A stretch of DNA of 24,621 nucleotides from IMG/VR virus record IMGVR_UViG_3300020471_000031, positions 1 to 24,621 of that record. One strand, written 5' to 3'. The notes beneath the pieces are model-generated. The model saw only the letters and a list, made by a program, of their open reading frames with translations, had not been told where the DNA came from and made no database searches. The translations under genes and the position numbers were made by a program. This document shows positions 1,850 through 9,865 of the stretch, piece after piece (the first letter of the stretch is position 1; every line of letters starts with the position of its first letter). Origin of the DNA: a virus.

Positions 1850-4844
1850 GTCTTCTTTGGTTGTAATTGCCGTCCCAGCTAGCTGAGATTAAAGCGGTGG
1901 AAAATGGGTCTGGTACTTTTATTTGTAAATCAAACTTATTATTCTTCTTTTGTATAGGTACTCTCACAGACTTATTTAATTGTGTAGGTGGTTTACCAAA
2001 GTTAGCTAAACCAGTTTTCATACCTGATTCATATTGAATGTAAGTATCAAACTCAGGTGTTACAGTACCACTAGCATCTATATAAGAGTTTTTAGCTATT
2101 AGGTGGAACTCCATAGGACCAGATACACCTAAATCAAAGTTCATACCAGAGATTCTTAAAGAACCATCTGTATCAAATTTATTAGCTTCAAGTGTCAAGT
2201 GATAGTCAGGTAATTCTAATAAGCTAGTATAGCTATAACCAATAACTACTTCCCATCCAGTCATGTTAATACCGTTAAAGGTAGCACTATTGGTACCTAC
2301 AGAATCAGCTTTAATAACCATACCTGCGTTGTTACCATTTAAACCAACTGCATAAAAATTAGTAGCAGCAGTAGGTGTATAGTTTAAAGCTAATACAGTT
2401 TTTTCAGGAGTTGTTGTAGTTTGAGCTGTGTAAGTTATAGATGTTGGTACATCCATACAATCTAGACAAGCTTCAAACCATCTAGCTGTGTATAACGGTG
2501 AACCTACATCACCTTCATTACCGCCTACAGTATAACTTCTAGTAGCTGTAGCATCAGTTATATACTCATGTCTACATAAGATGTAATCACTACCTTGTTT
2601 CGTTACTACATAAAAACTACCAGCAGTATAAGTCATATGCTGCAGAGTACCTGTTAAAGTCCAACTATACCAAGCAGATTGTTCTCTCTTTTCTCCAACA
2701 TTAAAGTATTTATAATGGTAAATTTGAGATGAATTTTTTTCACCAAAAGTAACAACACCTAATGCAGTAGAATTAGTTACTGTTGTAATATTTTTAGGGA
2801 GATATTCTGGTACTACTCTAGTTTGTTCTATAACTTGAGGTGGTACATCATCATCTAATATAGTAACTTCATACGATCTCGTGTATGCAGATACATTAGA
2901 AGTAAACATAACTGAGGTACCTAAATCGCTAGGTGCTAAAGAAGCATCAGTTTCATAACTAGCTACTTTCTTTAATCTAGCTGTTTTAGGACTAAAAATA
3001 TCAGATTCTGTAAATAGTAAAAACTGAGCATTATCACTAAACATCATTACCCCTTTTTGTATTGGGAGTACATGATTAATAAATGCAGGTTTAATATCTG
3101 ATACTGTTATATCAATAGGGTTGTCATCAGTAACACTAATAGCTGATACAATACCAAAGTTAAAGTAATCTCCAGGACGACTTAAAACGACCTGTTCATT
3201 TGCAATAAAACCTAGTCTATTTCTATGGAAAAATATTTTCTGGATTTTTTTACCATTAAAACTAGGGAATGGGTTTGTTACATCATCACCTACATCTCGG
3301 TCTTTCCAGTAATTATCAGTGGTTCCTTTGTTTGCTTCAGTTAAAACTTTGAAAGTAAATGTACCATCAAGATTATTAATCAAAGCGTGTGGCATAGTAG
3401 CAGGGTCTAAACCAAGTACCATAGGATCACTATTTGATGAGAAGTTATGTGGTCTTAAACACTCTTCCCATTTACCAGAACCTTGTGTACCATTATCAGC
3501 TATAAATTTAAGATAATAATTATCAGATTCTGTGTTATCATCATTCGCTACTTGAACAACATAACCATTTTTACATTGAGCTGGTAATCTACTAACATCT
3601 TGTGCAGTATTACCTAAAACAGTTATTTGTTCACTTACAGCACCTCCTAAAAAGTTTACTGTAGGAGCTGCAGTACCATATAAGTATAAACCACTACCAA
3701 TCATTTCAGCAGTGACATTAGGAAGACTGCTATTAACACTCGTAAATAGATTCCTTATAATCTTAGTCATACCAAGACTACCTTCATCAGGATTACGTGG
3801 TGTTTTATAGAAAGCTATACCACTTACACCCTCGTAAGTTTCAACCTCCTCAACTGCATCTACATGAACTGTATAGTTAACACCTTCAATAGTTATACTA
3901 TGTGATTTTGCTAAAGCTGCTGATTCAGTAGTCTCTTTAATAATACCACCGTCTTTTAATGTGACTTGTGCTGTATAACGTACTCTATAAATTTGTGTAT
4001 ATCCTAAAAAATCTTCACTAGAACCTGTAGTTGTACCACTTTTATTACCATCGTTATCAATAGTACCAGTATTACCATTGTCCCAATTATACCTTTGCTT
4101 CTCTACATAACTAGCAGCATTAACAGTTACATGCCCTTCAAGGTTTTCACAATTAGCATCACTAAATGAGAACTGAGTTAAACCTACATAAGGACTATCC
4201 TTATCAGCATCATCCCATGTATTACCAGTATCAGTATTACCAGAAGGTGAGTTAGAATCTTTAGTTACACTTAATGCAGTTGCTCTATAATAAGTATTAG
4301 GAGTTGGTGGTGTACTACCTGTATATAGTACATACTCCGTGTTATATTGAAGAGTATCTAACCTAGCAAAAGAGTACTCCCCATTGTTGAGAGGAGCATC
4401 AGCAGTCCCAGTGGTACCCACCGTTTTCTGAGGGTTAGTGATAATTGTGTAGTCTTGTATGGTTGATGTCGCATAAGCCTCAGTAGTACCTGTCTGGAAT
4501 AAATAATCAAATACTGAATCACCGTTACTATTAGTAAGAGTCTGTTCAACTCCAGTTAAAAGATTCCAGATTCTTATAGGTTTAGTACCTGAATAATTAT
4601 TTGCTGCTGTTATTTGTAGTAAATATTTTTGATCACCATCTCTAATTATCTCATACCAATACCCATCAGCAGTAGTATTAGTAAGTGTTTTCACAAACTC
4701 ACCTGCAGGTCGTTTGGTTAATCCAAAAGTGACATCAGGTACAGCATTATCACATACTCTTACCTGTCCAGGAAATTTAATTGTGTCGGGTTGTTGTGAT
4801 ACTCCCCCTAGAAAGTTAGGAATACGTTGATTAATTGCTGGCAT
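1836..4844 (-). CDS. Tail tubular protein B (T7 gp12-like)
   Basis: A 1002-residue protein, the longest in the window (T7 gp12 has 794). The N-terminus has the family's typical opening: INQRIPNFLGGVSQQPD, then RVCDNAVPDVTFGLTKRPAG. T7-like tail tubular B proteins form the nozzle at the end of the short tail, below the gp11 ring. The middle is rich in Thr, Asn and Ser with alternating polar and hydrophobic residues, as in beta-rich tail proteins. A later stretch, KIQKIFFHRNRLGFIANEQVVLSRPGDYFNFG (about residues 532-563), is also typical of this family. Start and stop of neighbours are coupled: the tail tube A stop and this start share one base (TAATG at 4842-4846). Confidence is high. Confidence 0.93.
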   Translation of the reverse strand: MPAINQRIPNFLGGVSQQPDTIKFPGQVRVCDNAVPDVTFGLTKRPAGEFVKTLTNTTADGYWYEIIRDGDQKYLLQITAANNYSGTKPIRIWNLLTGVEQTLTNSNGDSVFDYLFQTGTTEAYATSTIQDYTIITNPQKTVGTTGTADAPLNNGEYSFARLDTLQYNTEYVLYTGSTPPTPNTYYRATALSVTKDSNSPSGNTDTGNTWDDADKDSPYVGLTQFSFSDANCENLEGHVTVNAASYVEKQRYNWDNGNTGTIDNDGNKSGTTTGSSEDFLGYTQIYRVRYTAQVTLKDGGIIKETTESAALAKSHSITIEGVNYTVHVDAVEEVETYEGVSGIAFYKTPRNPDEGSLGMTKIIRNLFTSVNSSLPNVTAEMIGSGLYLYGTAAPTVNFLGGAVSEQITVLGNTAQDVSRLPAQCKNGYVVQVANDDNTESDNYYLKFIADNGTQGSGKWEECLRPHNFSSNSDPMVLGLDPATMPHALINNLDGTFTFKVLTEANKGTTDNYWKDRDVGDDVTNPFPSFNGKKIQKIFFHRNRLGFIANEQVVLSRPGDYFNFGIVSAISVTDDNPIDITVSDIKPAFINHVLPIQKGVMMFSDNAQFLLFTESDIFSPKTARLKKVASYETDASLAPSDLGTSVMFTSNVSAYTRSYEVTILDDDVPPQVIEQTRVVPEYLPKNITTVTNSTALGVVTFGEKNSSQIYHYKYFNVGEKREQSAWYSWTLTGTLQHMTYTAGSFYVVTKQGSDYILCRHEYITDATATRSYTVGGNEGDVGSPLYTARWFEACLDCMDVPTSITYTAQTTTTPEKTVLALNYTPTAATNFYAVGLNGNNAGMVIKADSVGTNSATFNGINMTGWEVVIGYSYTSLLELPDYHLTLEANKFDTDGSLRISGMNFDLGVSGPMEFHLIAKNSYIDASGTVTPEFDTYIQYESGMKTGLANFGKPPTQLNKSVRVPIQKKNNKFDLQIKVPDPFSTALISASWDGNYNQRRHVRR

Positions 4845-5488
4845 TACCTTCTTTGTAAAACTTTATATGGTCGGTAAACAGTGCTAGCATTAGTCCTACC
4901 TTCTTGGTTATTGAAGATATTGTAATCACCTTGAACAGTATCATACTCCAACGCTACAGCCCTTGCTTGGGCTTCATCTGCTGAAATGAGTTCTGCTGCC
5001 TGTGGGTTGTTTACCATGCGGTTAGAAGCGATCCTAGAGGCTCTGACGGTTATATAGTCTTGGAATACTTGTGGTATATCATTGAAATCTAGCATCCAAA
5101 CTACATCAACGTATATTTTACCACCAGATGTATTAGTAAATTCAAAAGTATGATCATGTAAATCATATAATTTTTGAACACCATTATGGGTTTTCCTGAT
5201 AGTATCAAAAGCGTCAGGGTGTCTATATCTATTAAGATCTATTTGTAGTACATTGTTTGGTATGATGCACTCATTGTTAGAATCTAATGTAATAGGATAT
5301 TGTGTTTCAGTATTGAATTTCCACCCTTCTGATAATATCTCACGGCAGACTTGCTGCAGAGTTTTCTGTGCAATAGCCACTTCAGGGCTTTGTACACTCA
5401 AGGTATTAACAGGTGACTCTCCAACACTCATCAATATAGAGTTGACTGCATCCAGTTCGGTGGACGCTCCATATGATATGCTTGCCAT
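4844..5488 (-). CDS. Tail tubular protein A (T7 gp11-like)
   Basis: A 214-residue protein close in size to T7 gp11 (196). The family's N-terminal signature is visible: TELDAVNSILMSVGESPVNTL, then EVAIAQKTLQQVCREILSEGW. A YITVRASRIASNRM stretch follows near residue 150. T7 gp11 forms the ring that joins the portal to the gp12 nozzle. I chose the ATG at 5488 because the frame upstream of it overlaps the capsid gene and a terminator hairpin, and starting there puts the signature at the N-terminus. The start lies only 6 nt past the terminator T-tract, so the 5' leader of any transcript crossing it contains the hairpin. Confidence 0.9.
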   Translation of the reverse strand: MASISYGASTELDAVNSILMSVGESPVNTLSVQSPEVAIAQKTLQQVCREILSEGWKFNTETQYPITLDSNNECIIPNNVLQIDLNRYRHPDAFDTIRKTHNGVQKLYDLHDHTFEFTNTSGGKIYVDVVWMLDFNDIPQVFQDYITVRASRIASNRMVNNPQAAELISADEAQARAVALEYDTVQGDYNIFNNQEGRTNASTVYRPYKVLQRR

Positions 5489-5534: not shown

Positions 5535-6713
5535 TTAAGTAGCGTTAGCTGGGTATGTAGTACCAAACGCAGCTGGCTTAGTAGTTGTACCTGCGAACAG
5601 TTCAACACAAGCTGCTGGGTTCAAGAAATCTGCCCCCATTGCTAAACGTCCCAATATTACATCTCCTTGGTAGATTACGTTTATATCTCCGCTTGTTACC
5701 TGAACCTGTGGTCCCATTGCTTCAACAACACCTGCACCTTCTCTTTGGAAGATAAGTCCACAAGAGTTAGCAAAGTCGGTAGCGTTACCGTAGTTGTTGT
5801 TGATACCATCTACAGAAGCACGTCCGTCTTCAGTAGCTACGTCAACGAATGAACCTGTGTTTCCAGGATTCACTGTATCAAGGTCAGTAGCAGCAGATGC
5901 ACCTGAGTTAGGAGCATACTTAGTACCGTACTTACTGAAGAATGGTACGTTCATTGATTTGTAGATATGAATACCTGCAATCTCAAGAATACCTTCTCCG
6001 CTTTGTAATGCTGTACCCTGTACGTCTCTGTTAATCAAGTTGTTGTTTGAACAATCTTTAATTAGTGCATAGTACTGTCTTGGGTTAAGTACGGCAACCC
6101 GACCATCATTACTCACTCCTTTTTCGTCAAGAGCAGCAGCTGCATCATAGAAAGCAGTTACTAGAGTAGATGCGGTTAATGCGTCATCAGCATTAGAACC
6201 AGCTCCAACTTGGATCTGTGTTCCACCAGGCTCTACAAAGCTAGACTTTACGATAGGGCTGGCTTGACGAGCACCTTTAGATACAGCTCTAAAGATTAGA
6301 CGGTCATACTTCTCAGCGAGAGCGTAACCAATCTTCTTAGAAATCTCACCACGTAAGTCATAGTGGGCAAGTGTCTCATCTAATTCATAAACAAAAGCTG
6401 AACTAATAAGTAGATCATCAATTGTTATGGTTTTTTCAGCTACTGGAGGTGCTCCATCACTGTTACCAAGTATGGACTGGCCAGGAACATGGTACTCAGC
6501 TGTGGTTCTACCTGTGTAGATGAATTGTAAACTCTTACCGTTTTTAAGAGTTCTCTTTGTTACAAGATCCCTTGCGATTGTATTACGCTGGAATCCTTTG
6601 AACATTTCGCCACTGAACAGCTTAAGATATAAGGCTCTCGAATCTCCTGTTGAGTTCGATTGACCAGGCCGTGTCAGATCAGCTAATGGTTCGTTACTAT
6701 TTTGATGTGCCAT
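5535..6713 (-). CDS. Major capsid protein (T7 gp10-like)
   Basis: A 392-residue protein (T7 gp10A has 345) with an HK97-type coat protein fold expected. The segments RALYLKLFSGEMFKGFQRN, KSLQFIYTGRTTAEYHVPG, EKTITIDDLLISSAFVYELD and ETLAHYDLRGEISKKIG match T7 gp10 block by block (LALFLKVFGGEVLTAF, GKSAQFPVLGRTQAAYLAPG, EKVITIDGLLTADVLIYDIED, MNHYDVRSEYTSQLG). The gene is set apart from its neighbours by a structured leader of about 235 nt upstream and a strong terminator downstream, which suggests its own transcript level. Its first residues MAHQNSN resemble the start MSHQNSK of the small gene at 6949-7113. Confidence 0.95.
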   Translation of the reverse strand: MAHQNSNEPLADLTRPGQSNSTGDSRALYLKLFSGEMFKGFQRNTIARDLVTKRTLKNGKSLQFIYTGRTTAEYHVPGQSILGNSDGAPPVAEKTITIDDLLISSAFVYELDETLAHYDLRGEISKKIGYALAEKYDRLIFRAVSKGARQASPIVKSSFVEPGGTQIQVGAGSNADDALTASTLVTAFYDAAAALDEKGVSNDGRVAVLNPRQYYALIKDCSNNNLINRDVQGTALQSGEGILEIAGIHIYKSMNVPFFSKYGTKYAPNSGASAATDLDTVNPGNTGSFVDVATEDGRASVDGINNNYGNATDFANSCGLIFQREGAGVVEAMGPQVQVTSGDINVIYQGDVILGRLAMGADFLNPAACVELFAGTTTKPAAFGTTYPANAT

Positions 6714-7249: not shown

Positions 7250-8305
7250 TTATGCTATTGGTGTGATCTCTTTTGCTGCTAGATCAAGCGGGAAGTTGTG
7301 AGCATTACGCTCATGCATTACTTCCATACCTAAGTTGGCACGGTTGAGTACGTCAGCCCAAGTGGGGACGACTCTCCCATTAGCATCAACGACTGACTGG
7401 TTAAAGTTAAAGCCGTTGAGATTAAAAGCCATAGTGGAGATTCCCATAGCGGTAAGCCATATGCAAACGACGGGCCAAGTAGCAAGGAAGAAATGTAAAC
7501 TCCTGCTATTATTAAAAGAAGCATACTGGAAGATGAGTCTCCCAAAGTAGCCATGAGCCGCAACGATGTTATACGTCTCTTCTTCTTGGCCAAATTTATA
7601 TCCATAGTTCTGAGAGTCAAGCCCAGTTGTTTCACGAATGAGCGAAGAAGTAACGAGACTTCCGTGCATAGCAGCAAATAGTGCTCCACCGAACACCCCA
7701 GCAACGCCAAGCATGTGGAAAGGGTGCATAAGAATATTATGTTCTGCTTGAAAAACGAACATAAAGTTAAAAGTACCGCTAATACCGAGAGGCATACCAT
7801 CAGAGAAACTCCCCTGACCGAATGGGTACACTAGGAATACAGCAAAAGCTGCTGAAACAGGTGCGGAATATGCTACACATATCCACGGCCTCATTCCGAG
7901 TCTATAACTAAGTTCCCATTGTCGTCCCAGGTATGCAGAGATACCGATGAGAAAGTGGAACACAATGAGTTGATATGGTCCTCCGTTATACAACCATTCA
8001 TCGAGGGTTGCAGCTTCCCAGATTGGGTAGAAGTGAAGACCGATTGCGTTAGATGACGGGACAATCGCTCCCGATATGATGTTGTTTCCATAGAGTAATG
8101 CGCCAGATACAGGTTCACGGATACCGTCAATGTCAACTGGAGGCGCAGCTATGAAAGCAATTATAAATGCAGTAGTTGCTGTTAATAGTGCAGGGATCAT
8201 AAGTACCCCAAACCACCCCACGTAGAGGCGGTTGTCAGTACTCGTAACCCAGTCACATAAACTATCCCAGTTACTGTTGGGTTTTGTTAGTGTGGCTGTA
8301 GTCAT
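7250..8305 (-). CDS. psbA: Photosystem II D1 protein
   Basis: A 351-residue D1 reaction-centre protein with five membrane helices expected. All key residues are present, numbered one lower than in the standard scheme: redox Tyr160 ([11 protein letters not shown]), Asp169, Glu188 and His189 ([13 protein letters not shown]), and the C-terminal manganese ligands in [15 protein letters not shown]. The residue equal to position 130 is Gln ([11 protein letters not shown]), as in the D1:1 form. The processing site after Ala343 is kept, but the cleaved tail is only 8 residues (AKEITPIA), against about 16 in many host proteins. Phage D1 replaces host D1 lost to photodamage and keeps energy flowing during infection. 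The gene lies in the hli cassette, 4 nt after the secreted protein. Confidence 0.99.
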
Positions 8306-8309
8306 TTAA

Positions 8310-8669
8310 TTAAAAAGAGAATTTAAGTCCTAGTTTAGAACCATAAGAATTGTCTACATCTTTCTTTGAGATGCCTGAGAACTCTCCATAGATACCAAGC
8401 TTCTGTGTTACATTCCATGTACCACCTGCTTTGCCAGAGAATTCTGTTTCTGTACCATCTACATCAGCGACTGCTGTTACAGCTGGACCGCCTTGAATGT
8501 AGTAGTCAAGTTTACCTGAAGAACCTTCGTAACCTACATGTAGGTCTACAGTTCTACCGTCATAATCAGAACCAGTGTAACCATTGTTAACTTCTGTGTT
8601 CAAATAAACTCCAGCAAATGCGGGAGTAGAGCATAATGATGCTGCTGTTATAGCTAAGATTTTTTTCAT
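8310..8669 (-). CDS. Small secreted beta-barrel-like protein
   Basis: A 119-residue protein with a clear signal peptide: MKK, a hydrophobic core ILAITAASLCSTP, and a signal peptidase I site after AFA (about residue 19). The mature part of about 100 residues alternates polar and hydrophobic residues in short strands (TVDLHVGYEG, KLDYYIQGGPAV, KLGIYGEFSGI) and ends in SKLGLKFSF. A terminal Phe is the usual outer-membrane barrel insertion signal. The pattern fits a small outer-membrane or periplasmic beta-protein of about six to eight strands. The start is ATG 8669 directly after the hli stop, with GGAG upstream. Its place between hli and psbA suggests action on the infected host envelope. I cannot name a function; a structural virion role is less likely given the signal peptide. 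Confidence 0.7.
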   Translation of the reverse strand: MKKILAITAASLCSTPAFAGVYLNTEVNNGYTGSDYDGRTVDLHVGYEGSSGKLDYYIQGGPAVTAVADVDGTETEFSGKAGGTWNVTQKLGIYGEFSGISKKDVDNSYGSKLGLKFSF

Positions 8670-8825
8670 TTAAAAAACTCCAGGAATGATTTGACCTGTA
8701 GTTGCATAAGCTCCTAGTGCGGAGATGATTCCAATCATAGCCCAACGGCCATTTTGTACTTCTGCGTTCTCGTTCATTGTATATTCAATAGGGGGTTGAA
8801 GAGCGATTACTTCTGTATCGTTCAT
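8670..8825 (-). CDS. hli: High-light-inducible protein
   Basis: A 51-residue protein from ATG 8825. It carries the single chlorophyll-binding helix motif of the Hli family: AEVQNGRWAMIGIISALGAY, then TTGQIIPG. In cyanobacteria Hli proteins bind chlorophyll and carotenoid, associate with photosystem II assembly intermediates and help dissipate excess light energy. Phage copies are thought to protect photosystem II during infection, together with phage D1. The longer frame from 8882 was not used, because it starts upstream without an ATG and the conserved part needs only the shorter form. The stop abuts the next ATG (TAAATG). Confidence 0.95.
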   Translation of the reverse strand: MNDTEVIALQPPIEYTMNENAEVQNGRWAMIGIISALGAYATTGQIIPGVF

Positions 8826-8889
8826 TATTAAAAGTGTAAGTGAACCGAGGCGAGGATGAACTGTCAGGTCGCCACGTATCACTATGCAT
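8785..8889 (-). CDS. Possible 34-residue protein overlapping hli
   Basis: ATG at 8889 shares one base with the stop of the preceding 28-residue gene (TAATG), the same coupling used by firm gene pairs here. The product, MHSDTWRPDSSSSPRFTYTF and 14 more residues, is Ser/Arg-rich and overlaps the hli start by 41 nt. No recognised domain and no strong ribosome site. It fills an otherwise empty gap of about 60 nt, but it could be chance. Confidence 0.35.
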   Translation of the reverse strand: MHSDTWRPDSSSSPRFTYTFNNERYRSNRSSTPY

Positions 8890-8975
8890 TAATAACCAAT
8901 TTTCTTTCCTCCTTTAATGATTTTCTTAGGGGGTCTACCTTTTTTTGTACCGTAAGTACCTTTACCTTTTGGCAT
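8889..8975 (-). CDS. 28-residue basic AT-hook-like protein
   Basis: ATG at 8975, TAA at 8889-8891, 2 nt after the scaffold stop. The product begins MPKGKGTYGTKKGRPPKKII and ends KGGKKIGY. It is almost entirely Lys, Gly and Pro. The KKGRPPKK core resembles the AT-hook (GRP flanked by basic residues) that binds the minor groove of AT-rich DNA. Very short proteins starting MPKGKGTYG and carrying GRPPKK are common in marine cyanophages near the head genes, to my memory. Binding to packaged DNA is an inference. The strong charge bias over the whole frame makes it unlikely to be accidental. Confidence 0.75.
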   Translation of the reverse strand: MPKGKGTYGTKKGRPPKKIIKGGKKIGY

Positions 8976-8977
8976 AA

Positions 8978-9865
8978 TTATACTCTCAGATTAGATCGTT
9001 GTAATTTTTCTTGGACTTCATCACGATAGGCTTCATCTCTATCATAACGTGGGTCGTTCATATCTGAAACAACCTGTGCCATGCTTTTATAGACATCAGC
9101 TGGTGCAGCTTTACCTGTTACCAAAGTAGAATCACGTCCTACTGCATCTTCATATTGTCCAAACAGTGCCTTTACTGCGAAAGTGACTGCGGCTTTGTTT
9201 CCTGTCTCAACAACTTCATCAAAGTTTTTAGCGTCAGCATCCGATATGTTATCACTAGCCCATGCCATTAATTGTTCATAACCTTGTTTACCACCAGCTA
9301 TAGAATGTACTTCTGCTACCTCTGCCTCTGTTAAAGCAGGGGCTTCTACAACTTGTGGTGTCTCATACCCCACTTCACTTCGTACACCTGAAAGATATGA
9401 ATCAACCATAGCTTTGTTAAAGCCAGCGTTGTTCAGCTCAGTGTACATCTCATCACTTAGAGTACCATTGTTCTCCATGAAATACTCATTCATTTTAAAT
9501 GGATCTATTCCATTATCTGAGAATTGTTTAGTGATCTGTTCACCATAAAGTTCACCAGCAGTTTCATAGTTGACACTACCATCTTCAGTATAAAAAGAAG
9601 CAGGGTCTATTTGATCTGGTTCTGCAGTTTCTTCAGTAGGTTCTTTATCTAGTTTTCCTAAACTAGATTCCTCACCTTGTTTCTTTTGTAATTCAAGGTA
9701 AGCTTTCTCTAAATCTTTTGGTGATTTATATTTACCAGCAAGCAAGCCTTCTTGCTCTGCCATCATTTGTTCACCAACTTGCAGAGAGTCTTGCTCGTCT
9801 GCAGTTAGTGAATCTTCAGTTGATACCGTATCAGTAGCGGCATCATATGTAATTGTTTCTCCCAT
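8978..9865 (-). CDS. Capsid assembly (scaffolding) protein, T7 gp9-like
   Basis: A 295-residue acidic protein (T7 gp9 has 307) between the portal gene and the capsid block, the place of T7 gene 9. It is rich in Glu, Asp, Gln and Ala. It carries the segment LLAGKYKSPKDLEKAYLELQKK near residues 41-62, common in scaffolds of T7-like marine phages, and ends in a basic stretch RSNLRV. Scaffolding proteins guide coat protein assembly around the portal and leave before DNA packaging. The ATG at 9865 lies 6 nt after the portal stop. In T7 the capsid gene follows directly; here the hli-psbA cassette lies in between. Confidence 0.85.
   Translation of the reverse strand: MGETITYDAATDTVSTEDSLTADEQDSLQVGEQMMAEQEGLLAGKYKSPKDLEKAYLELQKKQGEESSLGKLDKEPTEETAEPDQIDPASFYTEDGSVNYETAGELYGEQITKQFSDNGIDPFKMNEYFMENNGTLSDEMYTELNNAGFNKAMVDSYLSGVRSEVGYETPQVVEAPALTEAEVAEVHSIAGGKQGYEQLMAWASDNISDADAKNFDEVVETGNKAAVTFAVKALFGQYEDAVGRDSTLVTGKAAPADVYKSMAQVVSDMNDPRYDRDEAYRDEVQEKLQRSNLRV

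Follow-up and report, generated by a model that had tools for sequence, protein, structure and literature searches.

The gene at positions 8310 to 8669 (minus strand) of the window, the whole 24,621-base stretch analyzed here and a record from a virus of marine cyanobacteria, encodes a 119-aa protein that profile matching places as another member of a known cyanophage family, PF24653 (Phage_OMP). Our leading reading, held tentatively, is that the product is a six-stranded outer-membrane half-barrel that would pair into a nutrient pore of about 12 strands. The ORF starts with ATG, eight nucleotides after a GGAG ribosome-binding site (8678 to 8681), and follows directly on hli, encoding a high-light-inducible protein (8670 to 8825; phrog_178, E 3.9e-19), whose ORF extends to 8882 with a GTG start. 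Four nucleotides downstream lies psbA, encoding photosystem II D1 (7250 to 8305; TIGR01151, E 1.2e-222). This cassette is flanked by a head-assembly/scaffolding gene upstream (8978 to 9865; phrog_1052, E 2.1e-65) and the major capsid protein gene downstream (5535 to 6713; phrog_267, E 1.4e-81), all on the minus strand. Running portal, scaffold, hli, PF24653 gene, psbA, major capsid protein, the gene order matches a T7-like cyanopodovirus. The initial annotation had placed this ORF at exactly these coordinates, between hli and psbA, and credited it with a signal peptide and a terminal Phe. All of this was borne out: hli ends at 8670 and psbA starts at 8305, residues 1 to 19 form a signal peptide (8613 to 8669; MKKILAITAASLCSTPAFA, cleaved between AFA and G), and the chain ends in KFSF. 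The signal peptide is indicated by the sequence, by an AxA motif in relatives and by a low-pLDDT N-terminal helix in the structural model, and the mature protein (residues 20 to 119, 8313 to 8612), with six predicted strands and the C-terminal Phe, by the model, amphipathicity and hairpin coevolution. A full-length PF24653 match, a phrog_417 match, relatives in 479 phage records and a dN/dS of 0.12 to 0.25 against 11 close relatives, which indicates purifying selection, together confirmed that the ORF is a true gene and not a chance reading frame. A lysine-rich ORF of 28 aa (MPKGKGTYGTKKGRPPKKIIKGGKKIGY; 8889 to 8975, minus strand) separates the scaffold gene from hli, and tblastn of the phage collection returned no relative of it. 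PADLOC gave no match.

The match to PF24653, named 'Cyanophage outer membrane protein like beta barrel domain', was strong (E 1.5e-39; 135.4 bits against a cut-off of 27) and ran over the full length, aligning residues 2-119 of the window protein to profile positions 3-122; phrog_417 matched with E 5.9e-38. The relatives in phage records, mostly from Synechococcus and Prochlorococcus phages, were each less than 60% identical to the window protein (nearest 54.6%), and a search of plasmids gave no match. Among 369 distinct complete relatives the terminal Phe was conserved in 364 and the AxA cleavage motif was present in 354. Members scoring above the PF24653 cut-off included Syn9 gp222, S-TIM4 ORF224, S-SM2_217/218, P-HM2_229, S-SZBM1_90 and proteins of P-SSP3, P-SSP6 and KBS-P-1A; phrog_417, T4-GC 241, Syn9 gp222 and the annotation 'DUF680' are other names under which the family appears. 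The window protein has the full-length match, signal peptide, inward-face residues and terminal Phe in common with this family, and is distinguished by its location, flanked by hli and psbA in a T7-like cyanophage. Relatives are often mislabeled as DUF680 or gp222: many carry the DUF680 label in GenBank, but Pfam DUF680 matched neither the window protein (E up to 5) nor nine further PF24653 members (E up to 1). The classical eight-stranded OMP_b-brl family (PF13505) reached 20.1 bits, below its cut-off of 28.7. In ACG-2014d, a neighboring gene of 166 aa (4513 to 5013) is annotated as 'OMP1 protein' and had no Pfam match. The initial annotation had held that phage auxiliary genes rarely code secreted barrels and had put the gene forward as a candidate for an undescribed function. 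The first statement does not stand, as PF24653 occurs in hundreds of cyanophages and was present in 15 of 16 early cyanomyovirus genomes (PMC3037559), and the second is wrong at the level of the family because the protein belongs to one already in Pfam under a matching name. PF24653 is a catalogued yet uncharacterized cyanophage family.

Whole-genome scans of 15 cyanopodoviruses showed the gene present in P-SSP2, P-SSP3, P-SSP6, P-SSP10, S-RIP1 and KBS-P-1A, and absent from P-SSP7, P-GSP1, S-CBP1 and S-CBP4, which carry psbA, and from Syn5, SS120-1, P-RSP2, S-CBP42 and P60, which do not. In P-SSP7, otherwise collinear with the window, hli abuts psbA with no gene between them; given this patchy presence, the PF24653 gene is a facultative member of the cassette in cyanopodoviruses. 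In environmental relatives it lay either between hli and psbA or just after psbA. A requirement for psbA in T7-like phages was considered and set aside, since the association (6/10 psbA-positive against 0/5 psbA-negative phages, p 0.04) is weak and confounded by clade. Neighboring psbA and hli were mainly a feature of T7-like relatives, and nrdC was a common neighbor in T4-like ones; the myovirus S-PM2, when scanned, had no PF24653 gene. In P-TIM68 and S-SM2 the PF24653 gene comes immediately after a series of nucleotide-sugar and glycosyltransferase genes, as though it belonged to a region that modifies the envelope. An unannotated psbA in P-SSP6 (32588 to 33461) was matched as two overlapping pieces in different frames, a frameshift or a sequencing error. 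Cyanophage-like contigs had been binned under Euryarchaeota, Actinomycetota, Dehalococcoidia, Lewinella, Rhodobacteraceae and even a Nonlabens isolate, and are probably contamination.

An AlphaFold2 (AF2) model of the window protein, built on 76 sequences, gave a signal helix followed by an all-beta meander (mean pLDDT 86.7, pTM 0.68), with pLDDT of 92 to 95 over most of the mature part and low values in the N-terminal helix. Six strands were predicted (residues 20-32, 35-51, 54-67, 74-86, 91-100 and 108-117), joined by very short extracellular loops, and a model of the divergent, pstS-linked S-SM2_218 also gave six. An eight-stranded barrel of the PF13505 type was rejected on the six strands in the models of both members, so that six strands rather than the usual eight were predicted consistently. 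Strand amphipathicity was 2.77, above the maximum of 2.23 in 10,000 permutations, with outward positions hydrophobic (mean +1.21) and inward positions polar (mean -1.47). The inward face was more strongly conserved than the outward (p 0.014), and G46, G61, G82, G114, Y22, Y57, Y94, E26, E96, K112 and K116 were among its most conserved residues. Coevolution recovered all five hairpins as antiparallel pairs. Foldseek neighbors among solved structures were nearly all outer-membrane barrels, with weak E-values (best 0.03), and a profile search of solved-structure sequences matched only an autotransporter barrel (E 0.29). Both outer-membrane targeting, as predicted from sequence and model, and a beta-barrel-type outer-membrane fold, as modeled, are well supported. 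The barrel proposed in the initial annotation, which had named a non-barrel prediction as the result that would speak against it, is thus the fold that structure prediction returned.

Superposition suggested that the predicted monomer resembles an open arc, curved as in a 10- to 12-stranded barrel, because the models fitted barrels of that size better than those with eight strands. The window model superposed on the 10-stranded OpcA at 2.4 Å over 104 residues, against 3.7 to 4.7 Å (mostly 4.3 to 4.7 Å) on the eight-stranded OprF, NspA, OmpA and OmpX. The second model, of a divergent member, fitted a designed 10-stranded barrel at 1.6 Å over 87 aa, KdgM at 2.0 Å over 88 and BrkA at 2.3 Å over 95, compared with 4.3 to 5.2 Å on natural eight-stranded barrels and 3.9 Å on a designed one. 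Six consecutive strands of KdgM, a porin of the KdgM/NanC type, and of the BrkA autotransporter barrel could be superposed on the second model, although these proteins form 12 strands from one chain, and no sequence relationship was found. OprF, OmpX, OmpA and NspA share with it the outer-membrane meander, the terminal Phe and the weak PF13505 match, and differ in having eight strands, longer loops and a poorer superposition. Coevolution between strands 1 and 6 (z 3.4) is consistent with closure of one chain and with pairing of two, which predict identical residue pairs. The first of these would make the protein a closed, highly sheared six-stranded monomer without a pore that stabilizes or alters the host outer membrane. 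This weak antiparallel signal is compatible with such a monomer, as are inward couplings between nonadjacent strands (44-78, 42-80, 44-98 and 48-116) and the conserved inward Gly, Tyr, Glu and Lys, which resemble the filled core of small barrels. We nevertheless regard a closed monomer as unlikely, given the superposition on arcs of larger barrels and the implausibly small shear that coupling-derived registers would give for pairing between strands 1 and 6 within one chain. Moreover, among solved structures we know of no transmembrane barrel that has less than eight strands, and we know of none that is formed from six strands of a single chain.

Relatives in host chromosomes bear on the alternative, pairing of two units. 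The initial annotation had suggested a search for homologues in cyanobacterial genomes, and a PF24653 profile scan covering 400 genomes of Cyanobiaceae, the family to which the hosts belong, returned both phage contigs and chromosomal proteins above the cut-off. Chromosomal proteins of 256 to 260 aa each contained two PF24653 stretches in tandem (E 5.9e-11 to 1.1e-13), and their halves aligned with each other (z 17 to 25 against shuffles). A profile of the host halves matched the phage family in hhalign (probability 97.5%, E 8.9e-12), and in pairwise comparison the phage unit was nearer to the first host half (z 5 to 12) than to the second (z 1 to 3.5). The host proteins resemble the window protein in that both halves match PF24653, in the same inward pattern and in the C-terminal Phe, whereas they fuse two units in one chain, are chromosomal and have zinc-uptake genes as neighbors. 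At three loci those neighbors included genes for ZnuA, CobW, FUR-family regulators, an ABC-3 permease and an ABC ATPase. Longer and often His-rich relatives of about 320 to 440 aa were common, and 76 of 300 genomes had a match at E 1e-10 or better. At loci on Cyanobiaceae chromosomes, uncharacterized outer-membrane proteins that contain PF24653-like units, and frequently His-rich loops as well, adjoined znuA, FUR-family and cobW genes and had no NCBIfam match. The longer relatives probably include SYNW0972 of WH8102, a Zur-repressed, zinc-responsive and uncharacterized gene that follows znuA (PMC9337993), an assignment based only on gene order shared with one of these loci. Enav et al. found no homologues of ORF224 in the strains they studied (PMC6224464); the host relatives reported here needed profile methods to be detected. 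The matches from our first search of the genome collection are most plausibly phage contigs that lie within single-cell genomes or MAGs, and true host relatives surfaced only in the later family scan.

Paired units were also found in phages. At 27 loci two PF24653 copies were neighbors, 23 to 42% identical to each other, and pstS, the gene of a phosphate-binding protein, started no more than 250 nt from the second copy in 19 of the 23 tandem loci that allowed the test, compared with 9 of 307 single-copy loci (8/12 against 5/94 in the nonredundant set, p 1.8e-6). The order in S-SM2 is OMP-OMP-pstS-phoA, and divergent pairs directly upstream of pstS, sometimes with phoA, recurred as a cassette at myovirus loci. 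In a striking parallel, host chromosomes place two fused units beside zinc-uptake genes, and phages place two separate units beside a phosphate-binding gene. Among 463 family matches, no single phage ORF held two fused units. The window protein grouped with the first-copy type, and the P-SSP3 protein with the second-copy, pstS-linked type. Membership in the Pho regulon was considered and rejected: the best-scoring Pho box upstream of the window operon was at chance level, and a scan upstream of 348 members gave no enrichment (mean 11.9 against 11.7 in shuffled sequences), although Pho-box predictions are known to be unreliable (PMC10976474).

The six predicted strands, the tandem units of the hosts, the pstS link and the zinc-locus neighbors lead us to favor the half-barrel pore. 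The gene would be coexpressed with hli and psbA, and its product exported by Sec and inserted by the host BAM via the C-terminal Phe signal. Two copies would then join along their edges to form a water-filled barrel of roughly 12 strands, which may admit scarce small ions, most likely phosphate, to the periplasm of the infected cell, where they would feed virus DNA synthesis. We infer the pairing from sequence relatives in hosts and phages, and the pore function and its cargo only from gene neighborhood. With more reserve, we consider it possible that cyanophages carry such split pores, with half-barrels akin to both host tandem halves forming 12-stranded nutrient channels in the infected cell, as homodimers here and from divergent neighbors before pstS in some myoviruses. 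The suggestion in the initial annotation that the protein modifies the host envelope, including nutrient uptake, thus remains the best reading, without the novelty it had attached to the gene. Several observations weigh against a pore: the inward couplings between non-neighboring strands (44-78 and 48-116) could mean a narrow closed six-stranded monomer, the conserved inner residues mix acidic and basic side chains and make no obvious anion channel, a divergent member was found in virions, the Foldseek matches are weak, the family shows no Pho-box enrichment, and the window copy has neither a pstS neighbor nor a Pho box.

Superinfection exclusion, reported for some phage-encoded outer-membrane proteins, would have the protein block or remodel a surface receptor or LPS against adsorption of other phages. 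The outer-membrane fold fits this role, as does the position after glycosyltransferase and nucleotide-sugar genes in S-SM2 and P-TIM68. It would also suit the evolution of S-TIM4 on Synechococcus WH8102, where ORF224 gained 13 mutations, many of them disabling, with a cumulative frequency near 100% on this host only (PMC6224464); the gene is therefore dispensable there and probably costly. We still judge exclusion decidedly unlikely, for the modeled extracellular loops are very short, the most conserved face points inward rather than being exposed, and the pstS link is left unexplained.

For a minor virion protein acting at entry, published results point different ways. Mass spectrometry of particles purified on CsCl identified S-SZBM1_90, a divergent myovirus relative in PF24653 (2 peptides, 25.4% coverage, emPAI 1.06; PMC9146016), so that the virion detection which the initial annotation had named as refuting its reading is seen in part, for a divergent relative. 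The finding could reflect a virion role or outer-membrane contamination, as fragments of the membrane may copurify with particles. S-TIM4 ORF224 was classed as nonstructural (PMC6224464), and the sweep of its broken copies on one host fits a host-directed role. In the window the gene has structural genes on both sides, but nearly all family members have a signal peptide and a C-terminal Phe and the gene is absent from the otherwise collinear P-SSP7, and we find a virion role quite improbable. Very improbable, too, is a role in which the half-barrel blocks the host BAM complex or destabilizes the outer membrane and thereby halts envelope synthesis or aids lysis: a partial barrel that ends in a C-terminal Phe signal may by inference resemble a BAM-stalling substrate, but the S-TIM4 gene is dispensable on WH8102, many related lytic phages do without it, and the linkage to nutrient genes would go unexplained.

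To our knowledge, neither the predicted half-barrel structure nor its relationship to host zinc-locus proteins has been reported, and both are testable. Known cyanophage auxiliary genes, such as psbA, pstS and phoA, act within the cell or periplasm. If the half-barrel pore is real, a phage-encoded opener of the outer membrane would supply the step with which nutrient entry begins and which has been missing. It would also account for the location of the gene, which T7-like phages carry in photosynthesis cassettes and some T4-like phages ahead of pstS. The host relatives, in turn, suggest a testable function for the uncharacterized outer-membrane proteins of picocyanobacterial zinc loci.
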